Below, piece after piece: positions 1 to 20,547 of a stretch of 64,000 nt of DNA. The DNA is from Aeoliella mucimassa (GTDB lineage: Bacteria; Planctomycetota; Planctomycetia; Pirellulales; Lacipirellulaceae). The stretch lies in contig NZ_CP036278.1 of the NCBI RefSeq assembly GCF_007748035.1, positions 1,116,001-1,180,000 of the forward strand, given 5' to 3'. The position numbers and the translations under genes are program-made. Each line of letters starts with the position of its first letter. The stretch's first letter is position 1. The notes below the pieces were generated by a model. It ran no database searches, was not told where the DNA came from, and saw nothing but the letters and a program-made list of their open reading frames with translations.

Positions 1-975
1 GAATGTCAGCCGACCTTTGTCGAGCACACGCATCACGACCTTCTCGCCGAGCACGGTCGGCAGCGTCGAAATACGCAGGTCGACTTCTTTGCCGTCGACC
101 ACCACCTGGCAGCGACCATCCTGCGGCATGCGTTGCTCGGCAATATCGAGCTTGGCCATCACTTTCACACGGGAGACAATCGCCGGGTAAATGTCGCGCC
201 GAGGGCGGAGCATCTCGACCAACTGGCCATCGATGCGAAACCGCACCACGCCGAAGCTGCGGCCTGGCTCGATATGAATGTCGCTCGCGGTCTTGCGAAT
301 CGATTGCAGAATCAGGTAGTTCACCAGATTGATGACAGGGCTACCTTCCACCAGGTCTTGCACCGAAGCGATATCGACGCTGGTGATGTCGGTCTGCAGT
401 TCAACCGCATCGCTGTCCATGTCGGCCGTCACCGCGTCGACCGCGAAGTCGTCTTCGTAGCCACGCTTGAGCATCCGCTGGATCGAAGCCTGGAACGCGA
501 ACACCGGCTTCACCCGGAGGTCGGTCACGTGTTCGATGATGTCGATCTGATCGAGATCAAACGGATCGTGCATGGCGACGACCAACGTGTCGCGCACCCG
601 GAACAAAGCGAGGGCGAGCAGTCGTTCGGCCAGTTCACGAGGAATCAGTCGCACCGCTTCGGGATCCAGCAAGCCTTCACGCAGCCGAGCGGCCGGCACT
701 CGCAGCTGGGCTTCGATGTAGGGCAGCAGTTGCTCTTCGCTGACCGCACCCATTTCGAGCAAGGTCTCACCGAGCGGAAGCTGGCTATTGGCCTGTTCGG
801 CCAGCGCCTTTTCCAGCTCTTCCGGCTTCAGCAGATTGGCCCCAATCAGCTGCTGACCAAGCGGCCGGCGTACATTGCTGTGGGCAATCGCTTCGGGCGT
901 GGCTTCGCCATCCATCGGAGCGGTGAGTTCCGAAATGGAGCTAGGCGCGGCTTCGCGTGGGTAAGCAGTGCTCAT
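1..975 (-). CDS. PilB/GspE-type secretion ATPase, N-terminal part (cut by window edge)
   Basis: Assembly ATPase of a type IV pilus or type II secretion system, expected to act at the cytoplasmic face of the inner membrane. The frame is open from an ATG at 975 down to base 1, giving 325 residues with no stop. An MshEN/T2SSE-N-like region lies at about residues 38-150 (LGQQLIGANLL, LGETLLEMG, EEQLLPYIEAQL). The conserved start of the ATPase core follows (VNYLILQSIRKTASDIHIEPG, RISTLPTVLGEKVVMRVL). The Walker A and B motifs would lie beyond the left edge. The start overlaps the stop of the STAS gene as ATGA, so the two are probably translationally coupled in one minus-strand operon with a histidine kinase and response regulator. 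The nearby pseudopilin supports a secretion or pilus role. PilB and GspE cannot be separated from this part. Confidence 0.88.
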   Translation of the reverse strand, partial: MSTAYPREAAPSSISELTAPMDGEATPEAIAHSNVRRPLGQQLIGANLLKPEELEKALAEQANSQLPLGETLLEMGAVSEEQLLPYIEAQLRVPAARLREGLLDPEAVRLIPRELAERLLALALFRVRDTLVVAMHDPFDLDQIDIIEHVTDLRVKPVFAFQASIQRMLKRGYEDDFAVDAVTADMDSDAVELQTDITSVDIASVQDLVEGSPVINLVNYLILQSIRKTASDIHIEPGRSFGVVRFRIDGQLVEMLRPRRDIYPAIVSRVKVMAKLDIAEQRMPQDGRCQVVVDGKEVDLRISTLPTVLGEKVVMRVLDKGRLTF

Positions 976-8888: not shown

Positions 8889-9371
8889 GTGCAACGCTTC
8901 CGCCGGAATTCGGTTGTCCTTTCCTTGGTGAGCCTGGCTTGCCTGGGGATGGTGATGACGTTGTTCGACGGTGGTTTGCCCTGTGTTTGCGGCGGTCAGG
9001 CGCACCTGGCGGCGTTGGTTGATTCGACTAGTCCGGTGCGGTCGGCCGGTCCGGCTTGCTCGCATTGTTGTGCCGACGCAGGCTGTGGGGCGACCTGTTG
9101 CCAGGAATCGTCCGCGTGTTGCGACGACTGTGGCTCGCACGAGTGCGAGTGTCCTTGTTGTCAGCCGCCGGAGCCGCGCGAGCCATTTGCTCCCGGGCCG
9201 AGCGACGATTCGTCGAACCATGGTTCGACGGTCAGCCTGCTCGATCTCCTGGCGGTGCCTTGCGATATTTTCAAGCTACCACCCGCAAATCCGGAACTCC
9301 GGTACTGCGAGTTGGCCTCTCTCGAACACTTCACTCCCCGACGCGAACGGCTCTGTCGGTGGATCTTATGA
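8889..9371 (+). CDS. Exported cysteine-rich protein
   Basis: A 160-residue protein from a GTG start, with a basic N-terminus and a hydrophobic stretch (SVVLSLVSLACLGMVMTLF) that looks like a signal peptide or anchor. The centre is packed with cysteines as CC and CxC groups (SHCCADAGCGATCC, ACCDDCGSHECECPCC), then comes a Pro/Ser-rich linker and an unremarkable C-terminus. The composition recalls metallothioneins, which bind Cu, Zn or Cd through thiolates, but I recognise no named family. A second, denser Cys-rich exported protein follows after 75 bases on the same strand, so the pair is probably one transcription unit. Confidence 0.6.
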   Translation: MQRFRRNSVVLSLVSLACLGMVMTLFDGGLPCVCGGQAHLAALVDSTSPVRSAGPACSHCCADAGCGATCCQESSACCDDCGSHECECPCCQPPEPREPFAPGPSDDSSNHGSTVSLLDLLAVPCDIFKLPPANPELRYCELASLEHFTPRRERLCRWIL

Positions 9372-9445: not shown

Positions 9446-9802
9446 ATGAAAACTCTGTTCACTTTGGTTGCCTTGTTGGCGGTTGGATCGATTGGTACCT
9501 ATGCGGTTCGCGCCAACGGCACGAGCGACTCCGCTCCGTCCCCGGCCGATTGTTGTTGCGGCGAGGACTGCCCTTGCGAGTCGTGCGACTGCGATGGCAC
9601 CACCTGCGACGAATGCGATTGCGTACTCTGTGAGTGCGAGGATTGCGACTGTGCGAAGTGCACCGCCGAAGGTTGTTGCGAGAAGCCTGGCTGCTGCGGC
9701 GAAGCTACAGCAACCATCTCGGCTCCGGCCACCTGCGAGTCAGGCACTGGTTGCTCCGGCGGTTGCTGCCATGCGACCGATGCCCAAACCGATGCCATCT
9801 AA
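9446..9802 (+). CDS. Exported metallothionein-like cysteine-rich protein
   Basis: 118 residues starting at an ATG preceded by GAGAGAAATATAGC. A clear signal peptide (MKTLFTLVALLAVGSIGTYAVRA) is followed by a mature region in which I count 23 cysteines, mostly as CxC, CC and CxxC with Asp, Glu and Gly between (for example CCCGEDCPCESCDCD, CECEDCDCAKC). This density is metallothionein-like, but classical bacterial metallothioneins are cytoplasmic and shorter. An extracytoplasmic metal-binding or redox-buffering role is inference. A perfect 14-bp terminator hairpin follows 27 bases after the stop. Confidence 0.72.
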   Translation: MKTLFTLVALLAVGSIGTYAVRANGTSDSAPSPADCCCGEDCPCESCDCDGTTCDECDCVLCECEDCDCAKCTAEGCCEKPGCCGEATATISAPATCESGTGCSGGCCHATDAQTDAI

Positions 9803-9928: not shown

Positions 9929-11308
9929 CTATTCAGGCAGCGGCTTGTCCTTGGTTTCCGGGGCAAACGGCAACGCCGAAAGGCCAATCAGGTAGATCGA
10001 GCACATGATAATCGCGGCATAGCGCTCTTTCGTTGGCGAGGCAAGATCACCAAACATTGCAGTGCTGATCCAGGCCGAGGTCAAACCGCCGGCGGCCGCG
10101 CCGAACCGTCCCAGGTTGTAGCAGAACGACGTACCGGTGCTCCGCAGTCGGCTCGGGAACAACTCCGGCAGGTAAATCGCGTACAGCGAGAACATGCCGA
10201 GCTGGGTACCGAACATCAATGGCATGATGATGTAAGCATGCATGGGAGAAGATAGAATCCAATAACCGCCAGCGGTGATGAAGAAGGCCGAGATAAACGC
10301 CAGGGCGAACGCGGTGCGGCGGCCCATGAACTCCGCAATCTTGGCGAACACCCACATGCCGATCGCAGCCCCGAGCATCTGCAAGAGGAAGGCCGTGTTT
10401 CTGGCGCTTTTCACCTCGGCAGCAACATCGATGGCCGGTAAGCCTTGTTCCAGATTCGCGGCGTTGACCTCTTCGTAATGCTGGCTAAACACCACTCGCT
10501 GCAAGTCGGTCGTGAACTCGCCGATGGCCCAGAGACCGATCACGCCGGTCGACGCCAATACCGCACCCACGATTAAATTGCGTCGCCACTGGGTGTCGCG
10601 AAGCAACCCAGCATAGGGAGCGAGCAATGCCCCCTTCGGTAGCGTGCCGGCTTCTTTCGCCCGGAGCCATGGCTCAGGTTCTTTGAGGAAGAACTGGGTC
10701 AGTACCACCAATGCTGCGGGAATGGCACCCACCAGGAACATCCATCGCCAGCCATCGCCAGCGGTAATCGTGCCGGAGTTCTCCAGATTGTCGATAATCG
10801 ACTTCACCCCCACCGCGGTGATGTTGCCAACGACCGACAGAATCTGCAGCATCGCTAGCGCGCCGGCGCGGGCGCCATTTGGTACGGTTTCGGCAATCAG
10901 TGCGACCGCCAGGCCGAACACGCCGCCGACGCCGACCCCGGTCAGGAAGCGGAATAAGGCAAAGTCCCACACCGCATGGCTAAAGAAGTTGGCCCCGGTG
11001 CAGATCGAATAGATAAACACGGTAAGGGTTAGCATTTTGGCCCGGCCGAATCGGTCGCCGAGTGCGCCGAAAATCAAACCACCGATGCCCCAGCCGACCA
11101 GGAAGATCGCGGTCACCTCTTTGCCGAGCGCCTGAACGTCGGCCCCTTCGACCGTTGCGGTCAGCTCCTCGAGCGCCGGGACGCGAGCGAGCGAGAAGAG
11201 TCGCTGGTCGAGACAATCGAAAAACCAGGCGGCCGAAGCCACGGCAAACACGAACCAGTGATACGCGGTAAGCTGGCGATACCAGGGAAGCGAGGCGTCA
11301 GACGACAT
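9929..11308 (-). CDS. MFS transporter, sugar/organic-acid symporter type
   Basis: A major facilitator superfamily permease of 459 residues from the ATG at 11308, which has GGAG at a suitable distance upstream. About twelve hydrophobic segments are evident. The loop 2-3 signature is present (GALGDRFGRAKML), with an FDCLDQRLF motif in helix 1 and ELFPSRLRSTGTSF in the C-terminal half, both typical of the metabolite:H+ symporter group (sialate, shikimate and aromatic-acid carriers). Expected substrates are small organic acids or sugars, and the sequence does not decide. No catabolic genes adjoin it. Transcription ends at the terminator at 9829-9870. Confidence 0.88.
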   Translation of the reverse strand: MSSDASLPWYRQLTAYHWFVFAVASAAWFFDCLDQRLFSLARVPALEELTATVEGADVQALGKEVTAIFLVGWGIGGLIFGALGDRFGRAKMLTLTVFIYSICTGANFFSHAVWDFALFRFLTGVGVGGVFGLAVALIAETVPNGARAGALAMLQILSVVGNITAVGVKSIIDNLENSGTITAGDGWRWMFLVGAIPAALVVLTQFFLKEPEPWLRAKEAGTLPKGALLAPYAGLLRDTQWRRNLIVGAVLASTGVIGLWAIGEFTTDLQRVVFSQHYEEVNAANLEQGLPAIDVAAEVKSARNTAFLLQMLGAAIGMWVFAKIAEFMGRRTAFALAFISAFFITAGGYWILSSPMHAYIIMPLMFGTQLGMFSLYAIYLPELFPSRLRSTGTSFCYNLGRFGAAAGGLTSAWISTAMFGDLASPTKERYAAIIMCSIYLIGLSALPFAPETKDKPLPE

Positions 11309-11587
11309 CGAGGGCTCCAAGCATTTGAGATGCGTAAGTGGGAAAAGTCGTAGCGAGTCGCCGCTCGCCGACGGGTGTCGAATATTCCGAATTCAACTCA
11401 ACTAATCTGCTTAGTTTAGCTGCTAGCCCGCCCGAAACCACTGGTCCGCGGGCAGAGTCGTTGCAGCAGCCGACTTTTTTTACGAAGAATTGGAATTGAG
11501 GTCCAAAGAACAAGAAGCCACTCGCCTGTCGAGTGCGGTGCGGAGTCGACTGCCGACGAACCACCACCGAGCGGGGGGCGAACGGGG

Positions 11588-12537: not shown

Positions 12538-15390
12538 TTATCGCCATTCGAGCACCCGGAACATGCCTTCGTGCTTGCGGATGCGATCGGGCAGCGACAG
12601 CAACCGGTCGCGGTACACACTCAGCAGCACGGCGACTCCGAAGAACGATCCGCCACCTACCATCATGTAGAAGGCTGCGTTCTGCAGTTCTGGCAAACGG
12701 AACACCAAGGCGACCAGGCTAACCACCCAAGTGAGTAGGGTAGCACTGCCGAGTACCGTGGTAACACGTATGCGGCACAGCACGCCGGCTCCCAAGAGCA
12801 GCAGACCTAAGACCAAGGCACCCAGTTCGTGCAGCATCAGGAAACCAACGGTCGGTTGGTAGTCGCCAAAGCGTTGGGCCATGAGTCCCAGCACCAAGGG
12901 AGCGGTGCTCAGCAGGCTGCCGACCAGCAGTTGCAGATCGACCATCGGGTCGCGACTCTCGCCTTCGGTTCGCCACCGCAGGTGACCAGCACCGAGCAGC
13001 AGCACGCCGGCTGCCAGGGTGAGCAGTTCGCCACGTTGCCAGAAGGTGAGTGCCGACAGCATGTTGATGACAACCACCATGCCGAGCAGGTGCAAGCCAG
13101 CGAGCAGTCGCATGGCACGTTTCCACTCCACCGAAGGAGCGAGCCACGAAGCCAGCAAGGCGGTACCTATCTGCACGCCCATCAGCATTACCAGGCTGGT
13201 AGCCGCATCGTTCACTGCAACTCGTCCCATGGTCAGGAACAATCCACCCGCACTGCCGAGCGATACCAGGACCAATCCCACGTGCATCAGTACCATCGAG
13301 GTGGTCAAGCGATCTTCGTCGGCCGCTTCGTCTTTGGCAAACAGCCGCGACAACAGCATGGTAACCAAGCCAGCAACGCCGGCGGCTATGATCGGGGCAA
13401 AGTCGCCGAGTCCCGCGAAGGCCAACATCTGCCAGGCAGCCAGTCCGCCGCAGAGCACCGACAGGGCAGCCGTGGCTGGTTGGCCTTTGCGTTGTGTCGC
13501 CAGGGCCAGCGTGCCAGCGGTCATGCCGTAGAACAAGCTGAGTGTCAGCTGATCGTAATCGGCGAGTTCACCTGCCAGGCCGGCGAGGCTCGCGGCCGAC
13601 AGTGCCAGCAGCACGACGGTGGTCGTTACCAGTGAGTAACCCAAGTGACGAGCCGGGCTCGCGGACGACGACAACCGAGTGGCAAACTCCATGGCCAACG
13701 CCAGCACTGCCAGGCAAGGGAGCAGCATCGCCAGCGAAGTCACACCCGCGGAAGTCAGCGCGGTGGTTGCGAGTCCAAGCACCGGCAACGCCAGGGCGTA
13801 GCTGTAAACCACTTGCAGGGTGCCGGTAGCAGTGCGTCGCAGGAACATGGCCAACACGCAGGCCAGCGAGGCCACCGCCATCGCGATGGCGTAGTACGCA
13901 TCGAAGGTGAAATCGACAGGGGCTCCAGTTTCCACCAGCAGCCCACGCAGTAAGGCCAAACCACCCCAGGCAGCAGCACCGAGCGTGCACACCGCCCCCA
14001 GTCCACTGAACATGTGGCTCAGCGTGTCGAGTACTTTTACCTTCTGTTGCGAAACGGTCGAGAGCAACAGCGCGGCCAGTCCGGTCGAACCAAGCACCAG
14101 CATGGCAACCGATTCGATGCGAGGAAGGTTGAGCAAGTCGAGCAGCATCACCTCGCACCACAGCAGCGTCAGCACGGCCGAGTGAGCGTAGCGACGGCCT
14201 TGAGGATTCACGACCACTTGCGAGTAGAGGTAGGTGTAAGTGCCGAGGCCAGCCAAGGCAAACGCCCAGAGCTGTGCCCACGCTTGTTCGGCGACAACCG
14301 GTTCGGCAAACCAACCGAGGTCGGCAAACAGCGGAGCGTAGAACCAACCGACCAACCGCCCGCCGAGCAGCACGAGCAACCCGGCTGCCATCACAAAGTG
14401 GCCGGCAACAAAGAACGCCCGGCCGAACTTCGCCCTGCCAAAGGGGCCATCGTTTTCGTTAAACAAACGCTCGGCATGCACACAAGCGGTACCGAGCACC
14501 ACGAGGAACGTCGAGGGAGCGATGACCTCCCAGAAGTGCGATACGCTGTTATCGGCCAGGAATAGTAGGCCAGTCATCGTGATGCCACCCACCAGGGCGT
14601 ACACGAACTTGGCATCTTTCAATAGCCTGGCGACTCCCGCGTAGATGGCGCAACAGATCACGGCCGGCACCCACAGGTGACCCCCTCCCTCGATGGTGAT
14701 CAGCCCTTGAGCCGAGTAGAGCCACAAGTTCAATGGCAGCACCAGGCAAGCAAGCAACGTCATGGCGTTGCCGGCGGTTTGGTAGCGACTACGGCGAACC
14801 ATCGCGACACCACCAGCGAGCAACGCAAGGTTGGCTCCACCGACACAGCTGGCGAGCACCTTGGGGTTCGCAAATACGCCGCAAGTCCATAGCCAGAGCA
14901 CGAGCCCCAGCACCAGCAGACCGCCGCCGGTCATCATGAGAGCTTGTAGGCTGCGCGGGTCGACTAGGTATTCGATGAGGGTACGGAAGTCGAGTTGCTT
15001 CTTCGCCGCGGGGCCAGGGCCGGTAACGTGTACCGACTTGGACAGTAGTTCTTCAACTTCTTGCTGGCGAGTCGATAGCTCGCCGATGAACTGTTCGGCT
15101 TGCTCTTGTGTCAGGCGGTTGTGCGACACCTGGCGGCGAACCTCCTGGCTCACAAACTTGAGCTGTTGAAGCTCGGCCGCCAGCGGTAGCTGATCGTTGA
15201 GGCAGAGCTGGCGGGCGGGGAGGGCTCCCGAGTAGTCGAGATTCGGAGAGAGCTCCGACGCCCATTGGTGATAGGTCTGCGACAGCGTGTCGGCCTGCTG
15301 GGGTGAGATCCGCCCCGACTCGCGCCATGTAGCGACATGTCGCTGCAGGGAGTCGATGGCCTCCATGAGTTCGTTGTAAGAGTGGTTCAT
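12538..15390 (-). CDS. Very large polytopic membrane protein of unknown function
   Basis: 950 residues from the ATG at 15390 (MNHSYNELMEAIDSL). The first about 145 residues are soluble and helical, with Gln/Glu-rich heptad-like segments (LSQTYHQWASEL, RLTQEQAEQFIGEL, TRQQEVEELL) that look like a coiled-coil or SHOCT-like region. After about residue 155 the chain consists of roughly two dozen hydrophobic helices rich in Leu, Ala and Gly with short loops. The architecture resembles DUF2157-type membrane proteins with a helical N-terminal region, but I cannot assign a family firmly. It has a consensus sigma-54 promoter about 65 bases upstream and faces a divergently transcribed sigma-54 activator, so its expression is probably conditional. 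A terminator lies at 12251-12301. Confidence 0.85.
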   Translation of the reverse strand: MNHSYNELMEAIDSLQRHVATWRESGRISPQQADTLSQTYHQWASELSPNLDYSGALPARQLCLNDQLPLAAELQQLKFVSQEVRRQVSHNRLTQEQAEQFIGELSTRQQEVEELLSKSVHVTGPGPAAKKQLDFRTLIEYLVDPRSLQALMMTGGGLLVLGLVLWLWTCGVFANPKVLASCVGGANLALLAGGVAMVRRSRYQTAGNAMTLLACLVLPLNLWLYSAQGLITIEGGGHLWVPAVICCAIYAGVARLLKDAKFVYALVGGITMTGLLFLADNSVSHFWEVIAPSTFLVVLGTACVHAERLFNENDGPFGRAKFGRAFFVAGHFVMAAGLLVLLGGRLVGWFYAPLFADLGWFAEPVVAEQAWAQLWAFALAGLGTYTYLYSQVVVNPQGRRYAHSAVLTLLWCEVMLLDLLNLPRIESVAMLVLGSTGLAALLLSTVSQQKVKVLDTLSHMFSGLGAVCTLGAAAWGGLALLRGLLVETGAPVDFTFDAYYAIAMAVASLACVLAMFLRRTATGTLQVVYSYALALPVLGLATTALTSAGVTSLAMLLPCLAVLALAMEFATRLSSSASPARHLGYSLVTTTVVLLALSAASLAGLAGELADYDQLTLSLFYGMTAGTLALATQRKGQPATAALSVLCGGLAAWQMLAFAGLGDFAPIIAAGVAGLVTMLLSRLFAKDEAADEDRLTTSMVLMHVGLVLVSLGSAGGLFLTMGRVAVNDAATSLVMLMGVQIGTALLASWLAPSVEWKRAMRLLAGLHLLGMVVVINMLSALTFWQRGELLTLAAGVLLLGAGHLRWRTEGESRDPMVDLQLLVGSLLSTAPLVLGLMAQRFGDYQPTVGFLMLHELGALVLGLLLLGAGVLCRIRVTTVLGSATLLTWVVSLVALVFRLPELQNAAFYMMVGGGSFFGVAVLLSVYRDRLLSLPDRIRKHEGMFRVLEWR

Positions 15391-15454
15391 TTCAGTTTCC
15401 CTTTTTCCCTTGTTGTGCGTGGGGGGACGCAAGGGGTCCCATTGCTAGCTCTCT

Positions 15455-15473
15455 AAAGCAACGGGTGTGCCAA
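15455..15473 (-). promoter_or_regulatory. Sigma-54 (-24/-12) promoter for the large membrane protein
   Basis: The minus strand reads TTGGCACACCCGTTGCTTT, with GG at 15471-15470 and GC at 15459-15458. These are separated by exactly ten bases and fit the consensus TTGGCACrNNNNTTGCT almost perfectly. Transcription would start near 15446, giving a leader of about 56 bases to the ATG at 15390. The gene diverging from it encodes a GAFTGA-containing sigma-54 activator. Confidence 0.85.
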
Positions 15474-15549
15474 CGATTCTGTAGATGTCGTAAGTCATTT
15501 AATCAGAAAGAGTTATGGATATTCGACCCCTTGGATGACGGCGCGGTGT

Positions 15550-15574
15550 TATAATCCGAAGTACATTGAATGTA
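15550..15574. promoter_or_regulatory. -10 box and candidate activator-binding palindrome
   Basis: TATAAT at 15550-15555 is a good -10 element for the activator gene; no clear -35 was seen. Overlapping the expected start is TACATTGAATGTA (15562-15574), a palindrome with one central odd base. It lies about 115-130 bases upstream of the predicted sigma-54 start, where enhancer sites for such activators usually lie. It could serve activation of the membrane-protein gene and autoregulation. The site assignment is inference. Confidence 0.5.
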
Positions 15575-15612
15575 GGTGGTGTGTACAGTGAGTGATCGCG
15601 AGAGAAATTCCC

Positions 15613-17154
15613 ATGAATGCAGCTGATACGCAGTTTCTGGAGACGCTGGCCAAGCTGAACAACAGCAATCCCTTTAGCCGCGAGCGGTTGGAGTTGGAGC
15701 GGCAGGCCCTCGGCGATGCCTACCGACCCGACGACGACGAGCTGTGGAGTCGCACTCCGCATACCCGATTAAAAGAGCGGCCGAACGTCGCCCTGCTGAC
15801 CGAGCGGGCTGATGAGATGGCGGTCCGCATGCGCGAAAAGCTGCAGGCTGGCGAGACATTCGACCGCCAGTTGCAGGAGCAGTACGACGCCCTCGCCACC
15901 TACGTGCTGTATTACCGTCACGTCGCGGTGCGAAAGATCGACGAGATCGCAGGCACCGCGACCCAAGCAAAGCGGCATCGCGTCTGGCGAGAGTTCTGGA
16001 GCGAGTACCAGTTGTTCTTTTCCGGCACCGCGAGGGTGGGGCACGACCGACAGGCGGCCGCCCATTTGTTCGCCTGCTTGTTTCAAGTGCGGCGAGCGTT
16101 CAAGCACATCTTCGATTGTATCCTCGGCGAGTCGCTTCCCGTGGCTCGACTCCGCGAACAGGTATGGCAATCGATTTTCACGCACGACCTACAGCGGTAT
16201 CGACGGAGCCTGTATCACTCGCTTCGCGAACTGCCAACGCTGATTACGGGACCGTCGGGCACCGGTAAGGAGCTTGTCGCCCGCTCGATTGCCATGTCGC
16301 AGTACCTGAGCTTCGACCCTGAGCAAGAACGGTTTGTCGAAGATCACTCGTGCGCATTCACCCCGCTCAATCTCTCCGCGTTATCGCCGACGTTGATCGA
16401 GTCGGAATTGTTTGGTCATCGCCGCGGAGCGTTTACCGGTGCCGATGCCGATCGCGTGGGCTGGCTCGAAGCGTGTCGGCCGCACGGAGCGGTGTTTCTC
16501 GACGAGATCGGCGAGCTCGACATGACCATCCAGGTGAAACTGTTGCGTGTGTTGCAGCAGCGTACCTATTGTCGCATCGGAGAGTCGAACGAGCGAACGT
16601 TCGCTGGTAAGATCATCGCAGCGACCAATCGCGACCTGGCGGCCGAAATGCATAGCGGACAATTCCGGCACGATTTGTTCTATCGATTGTGCGCCGATCT
16701 GATCGAAACCCCGAGCCTCGCGGCCCAGTTGGCCGATCGTCCTGCTGCGCTTGAGGGATTGGTGTTGCTGCTCGCCGAGCGAATTGCTCCCGGCGAGGCG
16801 AACACCCTCGCCAGCGAGGCCCTGCAGTGGATCGCCAAGAACCTGCCGGCCGACTACGCCTGGCCGGGGAATATTCGCGAACTCGAGCAGTGTGTCCGCA
16901 ACATCTTGGTGCGAGGAGAGTACCGCCCCCACACACCACAGCAAGTGTCGCGAGTCGAATGGTTGGCAAACGCCGAGTCGGGCAAGTTGTCGGCCGAGCA
17001 AATGCTGCGTAGCTACGCAACCTGGTTGTACGCGAAGCATGGCACTTACGAAGCGGTGGCCAAGCAAATGGAAATCGACCGCCGCACGGTGAAGAGCAAA
17101 ATCGACCAGGCGATGCTCGCCAAGCTGCAAGGCTCGCCAAGCAAAAGAGCGTAG
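15613..17154 (+). CDS. Sigma-54-dependent transcriptional activator with novel N-terminal domain
   Basis: 513 residues from the ATG at 15613 (MNAADTQFLE), which follows GAGAGAAA; the GTG at 15592 is less likely. The AAA+ domain has Walker A GPSGTGKE (about 211-218), the sigma-54 contact loop GAFTGA (about 271-276), Walker B VFLDEIGELD, sensor I AATNRDL and the PGNIRELEQ motif. A Fis-type helix-turn-helix ends the protein (YEAVAKQMEIDRRTVKSKI). The first about 200 residues are helical (RLKERPNV.., FDRQLQEQYDAL..) and are neither receiver, PAS, GAF, FHA nor CARF as far as I can tell. It diverges from the membrane-protein gene that carries a -24/-12 promoter, its most likely target. Confidence 0.92.
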   Translation: MNAADTQFLETLAKLNNSNPFSRERLELERQALGDAYRPDDDELWSRTPHTRLKERPNVALLTERADEMAVRMREKLQAGETFDRQLQEQYDALATYVLYYRHVAVRKIDEIAGTATQAKRHRVWREFWSEYQLFFSGTARVGHDRQAAAHLFACLFQVRRAFKHIFDCILGESLPVARLREQVWQSIFTHDLQRYRRSLYHSLRELPTLITGPSGTGKELVARSIAMSQYLSFDPEQERFVEDHSCAFTPLNLSALSPTLIESELFGHRRGAFTGADADRVGWLEACRPHGAVFLDEIGELDMTIQVKLLRVLQQRTYCRIGESNERTFAGKIIAATNRDLAAEMHSGQFRHDLFYRLCADLIETPSLAAQLADRPAALEGLVLLLAERIAPGEANTLASEALQWIAKNLPADYAWPGNIRELEQCVRNILVRGEYRPHTPQQVSRVEWLANAESGKLSAEQMLRSYATWLYAKHGTYEAVAKQMEIDRRTVKSKIDQAMLAKLQGSPSKRA

Positions 17155-17178: not shown

Positions 17179-17931
17179 CTAGCCTGCCTGGTCGATAGCG
17201 GTAAGCACCTCGCCGATCGAGCCGGGGATTACCAGGTCGGCCATCGTGTCGAGCGGCGTTGGATCGCGGTTGATGATCACCAGTCGGCTGCCGCTGCGTT
17301 TGGCGATCACTGGGAGTTCGGCTGCCGGATTTACTACTAGCGACGAACCGATCGCCAGCATCAGATCGGCTTCCTGCGACCAACTGGCCGCCTTGCTGAG
17401 CACCGCGGTCGGAAGCGACTGCCCGAACGAAACGGTTGCATGCTTCAGCCGACCCTTCGGGCACTCGGTGCACTTGGGAGCTTCGTCGGTCTCGAGATAC
17501 TGCGCGACCAACGGTTCGGCGTCGAAGCGGGCGCCGCAGTCTTGGCATTCGATCTGGCGGGCGGTGCCGTGGAGCTCAAGCACCTGCTGGTTGCCAGCAA
17601 TCTGATGCAGCCCGTCGATATTCTGGGTGATGACCCCGCGGATGTTGCCGGCCGACTCCCACTTGGCGATCACCAGGTGGCCAGCGTTTGGCTGCGAGTC
17701 GGCAAACTCGCGATGTCCCATCGCTTTTTGATGCCAGTATTCGCGGCGGGCATCGGGGCTCGCCATGAACTCGTCGTAGTAAACCGTACGAAAGCGAGTC
17801 CAGATTCCACCGGGTGAACGAAAGTCGGGAATGCCGCTCTCGGTGCTCATGCCGGCTCCGGTAAACACCACCGCATGTTCCGCCTCGGCGAGCCACTCGG
17901 CAACCTGAGTTGCAATTGCGTTATCCATCAC
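17179..17931 (-). CDS. cobB: NAD-dependent protein deacylase, Sir2 family
   Basis: A 250-residue sirtuin. The NAD-binding motifs GAGMSTESGIPDFRS (about 21-35) and TQNIDGLHQIAG with catalytic His are intact. The structural zinc site is given by CQDC and CTEC, followed by GSSLVVNPA and VIINRDPTPLD. It should deacylate lysines of cytosolic proteins using NAD+. The symbol cobB is given by family only. The gene converges on the sigma-54 activator gene (24 bases apart) and is separated from the upstream lipoprotein gene by a terminator, so it has its own transcription unit. Confidence 0.95.
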   Translation of the reverse strand: MMDNAIATQVAEWLAEAEHAVVFTGAGMSTESGIPDFRSPGGIWTRFRTVYYDEFMASPDARREYWHQKAMGHREFADSQPNAGHLVIAKWESAGNIRGVITQNIDGLHQIAGNQQVLELHGTARQIECQDCGARFDAEPLVAQYLETDEAPKCTECPKGRLKHATVSFGQSLPTAVLSKAASWSQEADLMLAIGSSLVVNPAAELPVIAKRSGSRLVIINRDPTPLDTMADLVIPGSIGEVLTAIDQAG

Positions 17932-18278: not shown

Positions 18279-18558
18279 TACAATAACTCCCAAACAGGAA
18301 CGAAAAATGGAACTGTGTACTAGGATAAACCGATTTTGGCTGTCATGCACTAGGGGGCTGGGCGATTCTGGGGTGTTCCTGCTGGTTTTCTATTGCCTGT
18401 TTTTCCTGGTTTAACGTTGCAATTCGGCCGGCAATCGCTATGATGGGGTGGTGTACTAATGAATATTAATCGCATCTGCTGACATCGTGTCGGGGAGCAG
18501 CTGATCACGATCGATGGTAGAATTGTCGGCAGCAATACGGTTGCCAACGAGAAGCGTT

Positions 18559-20547
18559 ATGTCCTCAACTGCGGAAGACAGAACATTGGATTCCACCACA
18601 CTCAATATTCCCGATCAAGCGGCCGAGGTGCTGAAGAGCACGTTTGGCTTCACCTCGCTGCGGGCGGGGCAGGGGGAGGTGATCCGCTGCCTGCTGGCAG
18701 GGCGATCGTCGCTCGCGGTGTTCCCCACTGGCAGTGGCAAAAGTCTGTGCTATCAACTACCCGCTTTGGTGCTCGACGGTTTAACGGTGGTGGTTTCGCC
18801 GCTGATTGCACTGATGAAGGGACAAATCGACTTCCTGCAATCGAAAGGCATCGCCGCGGCCCGGCTCGACTCGTCGCTCACTCGCGACGAAAATCTGCAA
18901 GTGTTCGACGATCTGCATGCCGGACGTACACAGCTACTGTACGTTTCGCCCGAGCGATTTGGCAACGAACGTTTTCTGAAATTGCTCGAACAAGTCAATG
19001 TCGCCTTGCTAGCGGTCGACGAGGCGCACTGCATCAGTCAGTGGGGGCACAATTTTCGGCCCGACTATTTGCGAATTGCGTCGCTGGCGAGCAAGCTGTC
19101 GATCCCCCGCGTCTTGGCGCTCACCGCCACGGCTACGCCGGAAGTGTCGGTCGACATCGCCGAGGCGTTTTCGATCGACGAGGGCGACGTGGTGCAAACC
19201 GGATTTTATCGACCGAATCTGCACTTGCACGCGACACCTTGCAAGGACGACCACGAACGCCGACAGCGATTGGTCGAACGAATCAAAAGCCGCCCCGTGG
19301 AACCGGCGATTGTGTATGTCACTCTGCAGCGAACCGCCGAGCAGGTGGCCGAAACACTCATGGCCGCTGGCATCAAAGCCAAGGCGTATCACGCTGGGCT
19401 TGGCACCGAACGCCGTGCGGCGATCCAGGACGAATTCATGGCCGCCGGCGATCAGGTGATCGTCGCGACCATCGCGTTCGGCATGGGTATCGACAAAGCA
19501 AACATTCGAGCGGTCTATCACTACAACCTGCCGAAGGGGCTCGAGAGCTACATGCAGGAGATCGGTCGGGCGGGGCGCGATGGGCTTTCGGCACATTGCG
19601 AGCTATTTGGCTGCGCTGACGACGTGATCACGCTCGAGAACTTCAGCTATGGTGACACCCCCACCCGCACCGCAGTGGCCAACCTGGTGGACGAAGTGCT
19701 GGGGCCGGCCGATGCACCGCACACCGATTACGTAGAGGTGTCGCACTACGAGCTATCGCATCATCACGACGTTCGCGATCTGGTGGTGCGGACCTTGCTC
19801 ACTTACTTGGAACTGGAAAACGTATTGCGGCCGACCGGTGCCTTGTTTACCCAGTATCGGTTCAAGCCTTTGCGGTCGTCGGCAGAGATTCTCGCTCGTT
19901 TCGACGACGCCCGGGCGAGCTTTATCGCCAACGTGTTCAAGCAGTCGAAGCGGGGCAGGACTTGGCTGACCATCGACGTCGCCCAGGCGAGCAAAACTCT
20001 GGGAGAACCTCGTGACCGCATTATTGCCGCGCTTGACTATCTCGATCAGCGTGGCGACCTCACGCTCGAGTCCACCGGCATTCGGCATGGCTACCACATC
20101 GCCAAGCAGGTGGCCGATCGCCAGGGCTTGGTCGACCTGCTGGTCGAACGTTTCAGCTCGCGTGAGCAAGACGATTTAGAACGCATCCAACACGTGGTTA
20201 CTTTGGCCGAGGCCGACGAGTGCCTGACGCAAACGTTGCTTGCCTATTTCGGCGAGCATCGCTCGTCGTGTGGGCATTGCGATCGTTGCCTGGGGGGCAA
20301 AGGTCGCCCGCTGGTAGCCGCCCCGCCGGAGCTTGTTGCCAGCGATCGCAAGGTGATCGAGCAGATCGTCGCCGAGCGACACGAAGCGCTCGCGACCGCC
20401 AGGCAGACCACCCGGTTTCTGTGCGGAGTGACCTCGCCAGCAGCTTCGCGGGCGAAACTCCGCGGTCATCCCAGCTTTGGCAAGCTCACGCACTTGCCAT
20501 TCGGCGACGTATTGGCCGTGTGCGAAGAGTTAGGGCTTGCCGATTGA
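18559..20547 (+). CDS. recQ: ATP-dependent DNA helicase RecQ
   Basis: A 662-residue RecQ-family 3'-5' helicase from the ATG at 18559, preceded by GAGAAGC. Helicase motifs are complete: FPTGSGKSLCYQLP (I), VDEAHCISQWGHNFRPDY (II plus aromatic loop), LTATAT (III), FGMGIDKANIRAV (V) and QEIGRAGRDG (VI). A zinc-binding CGHCDRC and an RQC-type winged helix follow. The C-terminus (about 70 residues) is not an obvious HRDC domain, so the enzyme may be of the shorter type. It acts in recombination and fork repair. It is preceded by a divergent lipoprotein gene and convergent with the PmoA-like gene. Confidence 0.95.
   Translation: MSSTAEDRTLDSTTLNIPDQAAEVLKSTFGFTSLRAGQGEVIRCLLAGRSSLAVFPTGSGKSLCYQLPALVLDGLTVVVSPLIALMKGQIDFLQSKGIAAARLDSSLTRDENLQVFDDLHAGRTQLLYVSPERFGNERFLKLLEQVNVALLAVDEAHCISQWGHNFRPDYLRIASLASKLSIPRVLALTATATPEVSVDIAEAFSIDEGDVVQTGFYRPNLHLHATPCKDDHERRQRLVERIKSRPVEPAIVYVTLQRTAEQVAETLMAAGIKAKAYHAGLGTERRAAIQDEFMAAGDQVIVATIAFGMGIDKANIRAVYHYNLPKGLESYMQEIGRAGRDGLSAHCELFGCADDVITLENFSYGDTPTRTAVANLVDEVLGPADAPHTDYVEVSHYELSHHHDVRDLVVRTLLTYLELENVLRPTGALFTQYRFKPLRSSAEILARFDDARASFIANVFKQSKRGRTWLTIDVAQASKTLGEPRDRIIAALDYLDQRGDLTLESTGIRHGYHIAKQVADRQGLVDLLVERFSSREQDDLERIQHVVTLAEADECLTQTLLAYFGEHRSSCGHCDRCLGGKGRPLVAAPPELVASDRKVIEQIVAERHEALATARQTTRFLCGVTSPAASRAKLRGHPSFGKLTHLPFGDVLAVCEELGLAD

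Follow-up and report, generated by a model that had tools for sequence, protein, structure and literature searches.

Activators of sigma-54 (EBPs) in Pirellula were reportedly the subject of an older study by Studholme and Dixon in 2004. Among the described activators, PspF is not known to carry an N-terminal regulatory domain, and PrsR is a response regulator with a kinase partner. In the accessible part of PMC11237479, PspF is described as consisting of AAA+ and a Fis-type HTH only, and DUF2157 is grouped with the LiaF-type envelope-stress sensors. In parallel, VIT-vWA proteins with GlyGly-CTERM are on record in PMC3237569, in whose available text the word “sigma” occurs 0 times, and rhombosortase-processed proteins reach the cell surface in Vibrio, according to the available portion of PMC6219818. 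More recently, a 2025 survey of sigma-54 regulons (PMC12316311) often names Planctomycetota, yet the words von Willebrand, DUF2157, inter-alpha, and membrane protein do not appear in its text. In the open journal literature, we found no paper joining the VIT domain, sigma-54, and von Willebrand, nor, among the papers listed, any joining sigma-54 with rhombosortase or GlyGly-CTERM.

Here, we describe a locus in the window, that is, the whole stretch of 64,000 nucleotides of Aeoliella mucimassa DNA that was analysed, in which a sigma-54 activator (EBP) diverges from a giant membrane protein (MEM); the host genome has 6.6 Mb in a single contig and one rpoN. Our main reading, to which we give a probability of about 0.8, is that both genes make up a local, self-contained sigma-54 circuit, in which the EBP would turn on the divergent MEM gene and in which the signal and the output would be related to the cell envelope. 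Such a locus offers a regulator family defined by three jointly testable traits, namely a sensor fold without earlier description, an enhancer array that can be recognised, and one output encoded next door. It also gives access to two functionally uncharacterised protein families, the EBP N-terminal domain and MEM.

The divergent locus and its two proteins

An earlier note on this DNA had placed here an activator diverging from a 950-residue membrane protein, and both ORFs are indeed found at those places (Table 1), with a TTG extension of the MEM frame to 15432 and an alternative GTG start of the EBP at 15592 both being possible. The near-perfect -24/-12 promoter, claimed at 15455-15473, was recovered inside that interval and matches the consensus throughout, save for the G that follows CAC, a weakly conserved position. 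The 13-bp palindrome claimed at the enhancer position turned out to be exact and to form the core of a conserved 15-mer (site 1), of which a weaker copy (site 2) is found at a distance of 22 bp. Between the -24 end of the promoter and the start of site 1 there are 87 bp, and site 2 matches 9/13 palindrome positions. When the region was shuffled 200 times with its dinucleotides preserved, no shuffle equalled the -24/-12 score of the window, calculated with weights of our own that were modelled on the sigma-54 consensus, and none of 200 shuffles reached its palindrome score; given that the consensus for scoring the palindrome was drawn from the same 22 loci, the independent test of this element is the k-mer count described below. 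A TATAAT hexamer was considered as a conserved sigma-70 box before the EBP gene and rejected, since it is present in the window only and absent from the other 21 loci examined.

Table 1. Coordinates of the genes and elements discussed (window positions, unless a locus or residues are named)
Feature	Position	Strand	Remarks
Giant polytopic membrane protein (MEM)	12538..15390	-	950 aa; presumed target gene; ORF from ATG
Sigma-54 activator (EBP)	15613..17154	+	513 aa; ORF from ATG; divergent from MEM
EBP, N-terminal helical domain	residues ~1-204		
EBP, AAA+	residues ~205-433		
EBP, C-terminal helix-turn-helix-like end	residues ~472-501		
-24/-12 sigma-54 promoter	15457..15473	-	TTGGCACACCCGTTGCT; 17-mer; kept at 13/13 MEM-paired loci
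Upstream activator site 1 (putative)	15561..15575	+	GTACATTGAATGTAG; 15-mer; exact palindrome TACATTGAATGTA (15562-15574) at core
Upstream activator site 2 (putative)	15583..15597	+	GTACAGTGAGTGATC; weaker
TATAAT, possible sigma-70 -10 box of EBP gene	15550..15555	+	6/6 match
Coiled-coil membrane protein	L070, 9112-10269	+	
Coiled-coil membrane protein	L147, 3639-4802	-	
Coiled-coil membrane protein	L179, 1483-2589	-	

As for the surroundings of the pair, two adjacent small ORFs (8889-9371 and 9446-9802, both +), which are very rich in cysteine, start in a signal-like manner, and match nothing in Pfam, lie beside an MFS transporter (9929-11320, -), and at the other end an ordinary Sir2-family gene (17179-17931, -) is convergent with the EBP gene, with an equally ordinary RecQ-like helicase gene (18514-20547, +) beyond it.

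In the circuit that we propose, the EBP would bind GTAC(A) half-sites that are arrayed at intervals of about one helical turn immediately ahead of its own gene, and a signal would relieve or activate its N-terminal helical domain, whereupon the AAA+ ring would hydrolyse ATP and open the sigma-54 polymerase waiting at the divergent -24/-12, the outcome being that MEM is made. The sequence itself supplies the domains, the promoter, the site array, the conservation of all these, and the fact that the screens yielded no second strong target; from here we infer that the EBP binds these sites and activates from them, and the same sites may also repress the EBP's own promoter.

The AAA+ sigma-54 interaction domain of the EBP is clear (PF00158, 4.5e-46), with the Walker A motif GPSGTGKE at residue 213 and the GAFTGA motif, already named in the earlier note, starting at residue 272. 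Its C-terminal end at 472-501 gave only sub-threshold HTH_28 and Sigma70_r4 matches, and this stretch is conserved in 22 relatives. The N-terminal domain of about 200 residues, which the earlier note had not recognised, likewise found no match in our HMM and structure searches: there is no Pfam match in the window protein, the best E value among 22 relatives is 0.047 (noise), no PDB sequence relative is better than E 0.22, and as candidates for a known fold the best Foldseek matches, TetR-type regulators and 14-3-3, were rejected with E of at least 0.48 and TM of ~0.2-0.3. An AlphaFold2 model of this domain (pLDDT 87.9, pTM 0.85), made with 73 sequences, i.e., the window and 72 of the 80 named loci introduced below, has nine helices, and an all-helical bundle is thus confidently predicted. 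Its best-kept motifs are NPF...R...E near residue 19 and, before the AAA+ domain, HLFAC..Q.RRAF and WQSIFTHD..RYRR. A receiver domain gave no Pfam match in the EBP at E <= 1. An anti-phage system was also considered and discarded, the EBP matching RtcR-type models only, and best over its AAA+, and MEM matching none.

MEM is polytopic, as had been claimed, with 23 hydrophobic segments in a Kyte-Doolittle scan and ~26 long helices from residue 145 onwards in a low-confidence model. No fold could be assigned, as this model is too weak (pLDDT 64.8, pTM 0.47, 7 sequences, leaving out L149, whose open frame departs from the MEM frame midway) and gave no PDB match at E <= 0.001, and the family searches that had been suggested for MEM returned no Pfam or NCBIfam family, nor any Pfam family across 15 MEM members. 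Two candidate relatives that are alike by eye were rejected, DUF2157 with an hhalign probability of 1 and no Pfam match, and DUF2339 with a probability of 50 over 30 columns and no Pfam match; since neither homology was borne out, what ties MEM to the envelope is its membrane-protein nature. The MEM N-terminus (~residues 1-120), helical in the low-confidence model, is lineage-specific, given that the homology match limits place it in only 5/13 paired proteins (the window's own, G003, G001, G018, and G005) and in one unpaired homologue, G049.

Conservation of the gene pair, the promoter, and the upstream sites

Among 59 related genomes, a full-length EBP is found in 21 and a MEM homologue in 21, the EBPs in several high-GC loci having been located by tblastn, since the longest-ORF rule missed them. 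The EBP and MEM genes are adjacent and divergent in 13 of these genomes, so that the two are neighbours elsewhere, as the earlier note had asked, in 13 of the 21 EBP-bearing ones. The best segment of the 13 paired MEMs has 41-59% identity (or is the window itself) vs. 32-38% in the 8 unpaired MEM homologues, which have neither the -24/-12 and palindrome pair nor an EBP neighbour. Regarding the 8 EBP genomes with no adjacent MEM, a VIT-vWA gene is immediately divergent in 5, it lies beyond an intervening 385-aa coiled-coil gene in G042, a rhombosortase is found ~0.7 kb from the EBP in G017, and no EBP partner was identified in G056. The near relative G001 also carries a second EBP copy (L074), 47% identical and having its own -24/-12 and palindrome, beside which no MEM or VIT partner was seen. 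The coiled-coil protein seen in G042, a membrane protein that has cysteine pairs near its C-terminus, is encoded in 3/109 loci searched (Table 1), being divergent from the EBP in L070 and the nearest opposite-strand gene of note in L147.

A divergent -24/-12 at p <= 0.02 vs. shuffles is present in 19/22 EBP loci (21 genomes, one with two EBP copies), 3/22 having no significant box, and in all 13 MEM-paired loci, which settles in the affirmative whether the box is conserved in other genomes. Among 79 named EBP loci (7 of which belong to the first locus set as well, and with L202 dropped for having no upstream DNA), a divergent -24/-12 at p <= 0.05 is found in 51 and a box in the EBP direction in 6, with only 5/12 of the MFS/DUF loci having the divergent one. 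The palindrome at p <= 0.05 is present in 15/22 EBP loci and in 53/79 named loci, and in 9/13 of the MEM-paired loci, i.e., it is missing at significance from 4/13.

The independent k-mer count was carried out with no preset motif on 72 held-out loci of planctomycetes and several other phyla, after dropping from the 80 named loci the 7 that duplicate relatives, plus L202. TGTACA and ATGTACA came out as the top k-mers, the former upstream of the EBP in 44/72 loci vs. 2.4 expected and the latter in 37/72 vs. 1.1 expected. Measured from the -24 end, the sites gather at distances of 84-88, 95-97, and 106-111 bp, and the site pairs are spaced by 11, 21-22, 32, and 43 bp (71/72 pairs under 60 bp), which gives about one GTAC half-site per helical turn, the 11-bp step being partly inherent in the palindrome itself. 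A good box together with a good site is present in 34 held-out loci, and 26 of their distances lie within three intervals vs. 6% expected, these intervals, one helical turn apart, having been picked after seeing the 79-locus result, and 16/34 fall in the two intervals preset from the first 22 loci (83-89 and 107-111). Because the loci are related, neither the locus counts nor the spacing figures are independent. A lone -24/-12 can of course arise by chance in a genome of 6.6 Mb, but a fortuitous box and palindrome between mere neighbours is hardly credible, being contradicted by the conservation, the spacing, and the k-mer results, and with the EBP-MEM pairs forming one clade with one output.

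Further targets and the wider EBP family

It is general knowledge that EBPs often control several operons, and the EBP described here might accordingly be a wider regulator with MEM as one of many targets, the divergent gene being merely the nearest. The genome contains TACATTNNATGTA with at most one mismatch in 12 places, and only the focal one of these near-exact palindromes has a -24/-12 scoring at least 22.5 within 260 bp, which leaves 11/12 of them with no strong box and argues against additional targets. Neither is the palindrome enriched genome-wide, with 339 matches at two mismatches vs. 452 for the reversed control. A combined box and site pattern did give five matches in the genome vs. 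1 in the control, as a wider regulator would have it, one of the five being the focal locus; the four extra matches, however, are located within open frames and their palindromes reach 8/13 at most, and over the 59 genomes the same pattern gave 69 matches vs. 81 in the control, 11/69 at EBP loci. Given that this pattern recovers the EBP locus in 9/13 MEM-paired genomes and in G038, and therefore misses 4/13 MEM-paired loci, targets with weaker sites are conceivable and could be missed. We regard the wider regulator as distinctly unlikely and, with no second target found in the screens, consider the local EBP-MEM circuit well supported by the sequence of this genome.

The single dedicated output that the earlier note had proposed for the activator therefore fits this genome and does not hold across the EBP family, which elsewhere adjoins other genes, above all VIT-vWA, making MEM the output of one clade and not a family-defining one. 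The EBP N-terminal domain is found in 44/392 genomes of the phylum, one match each, and in a named genome collection 202 loci encode an EBP relative (253 candidates, 80 kept), mostly from Planctomycetota by their record titles, and also from Sumerlaeota, Hydrogenedentota, Lentisphaerota, Methylomirabilota, Verrucomicrobiota, Acidobacteriota, Nitrospinota, and others, with many metagenome bins. In the 80 named loci, where classes can overlap, VIT-vWA is present in 27, in each case as the EBP's neighbour on the opposite strand, and 24 of these also have a rhombosortase; MEM is present in 10, all of them devoid of a rhombosortase gene, MFS-acyltransferase-AMP-ligase proteins in 9, DUF2339 in 5, DUF2157 in 3, two lipoprotein kinds in 3 and 1, and no identified partner class in 27; L178 encodes a rhombotarget lipoprotein over the NCBIfam cut-off. 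The MFS-acyltransferase-AMP-ligase fusions near the EBP are seen in Acidobacteriota (L173, L193, L204, L213, and others), and at these loci the GTAC sites are often present and the -24/-12 is often absent. VIT genes away from any EBP (G018 with two, G007 with one, and G013 with a partial gene) were rejected as extra targets, since no palindrome precedes any of them, although one G018 copy has a fair -24/-12; lacking the site pair, they indicate that what the EBP controls does not amount to a genome-wide regulon.

In a tree of 89 EBPs, obtained by a quick method with midpoint root (78/80 named loci, omitting the short L203 and L216, plus the window and 10/21 other wide EBP loci), the 17 with MEM form one clade with SH-aLRT 99, and VIT is scattered with 20 changes. 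This single clade implies that MEM probably joined the EBP once, and VIT with rhombosortase may be the older output.

The company of the EBP family, i.e., VIT-vWA with rhombosortase, DUF2157/DUF2339, MFS-acyltransferase-AMP-ligase fusions, and the rhombotarget lipoprotein, suggests that both the signal and the output would concern the cell envelope, our best guess for the role being cell-envelope maintenance. Since the outputs of the family are all at the surface or membrane, we propose with modest confidence that MEM is an envelope effector. More tentatively, and at somewhat less than even odds, these EBPs may be a widespread undescribed class of sigma-54 activators, whose all-helical N-terminal domain would read a common envelope cue and drive lineage-specific envelope effectors from the same helically phased GTAC enhancer. 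If so, the effectors would be a rhombosortase-processed VIT-vWA protein in many lineages and membrane-lipid or DUF2157/DUF2339 proteins in others, with MEM as a new giant membrane protein family in one planctomycete clade.

Comparison with described sigma-54 systems

The EBP resembles RtcR in its AAA+ domain, which is closest to RtcR among the NCBIfam models (193 bits) and also matches the PADLOC RtcR_PspF2 model (215 bits), but the former score compares with a whole-protein cut-off of 650, and the RtcR matches cover the AAA+ (one PADLOC model reaching residue 497) and none of the N-terminal 200 residues. In place of the CARF N-terminus of RtcR, the EBP has 207 N-terminal residues with no Pfam match, and unlike the NtrC-type response regulators it has no N-terminal receiver domain.

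The phage-shock operon shares with this locus an activator divergent from its sigma-54 target, pspF with pspABC, with shared sites between them, in the available part of PMC11237479. By analogy, MEM or its cytosolic N-terminus might hold the EBP at the membrane in an inactive state, in the way PspA holds PspF, MEM then being sensor and output together, and some EBP-family loci do contain DUF2157, which that text places together with LiaF among the sensory domains for envelope stress (PMC11237479). We hold this variant of the phage-shock circuit to be unlikely, however, as the target MEM is not PspA and the EBP-MEM pair contains none, the EBP carries a large additional domain of 200 residues at its N-terminus, the MEM N-terminus is not conserved in 8/13 paired proteins, and the other outputs of the EBP family are unrelated proteins.

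The rhombosortase/GlyGly-CTERM system has its parallel in the rhombosortase (TIGR03902 over cut-off) beside the VIT-vWA genes in the VIT branch of the EBP family, but the genome of the window has no rhombosortase over cut-off (best 29 bits vs. the TIGR03902 cut-off of 84). The RpoN-dependent PEP-CTERM system of PrsK/PrsR type differs in that its proteins carry PEP-CTERM and in that the EBP has no receiver domain, and it is comparable, in the accessible part of PMC9850573, in having sigma-54 control of a sorted surface protein, as in the VIT/rhombosortase branch, where sigma-54 would be linked to rhombosortase-processed surface proteins.
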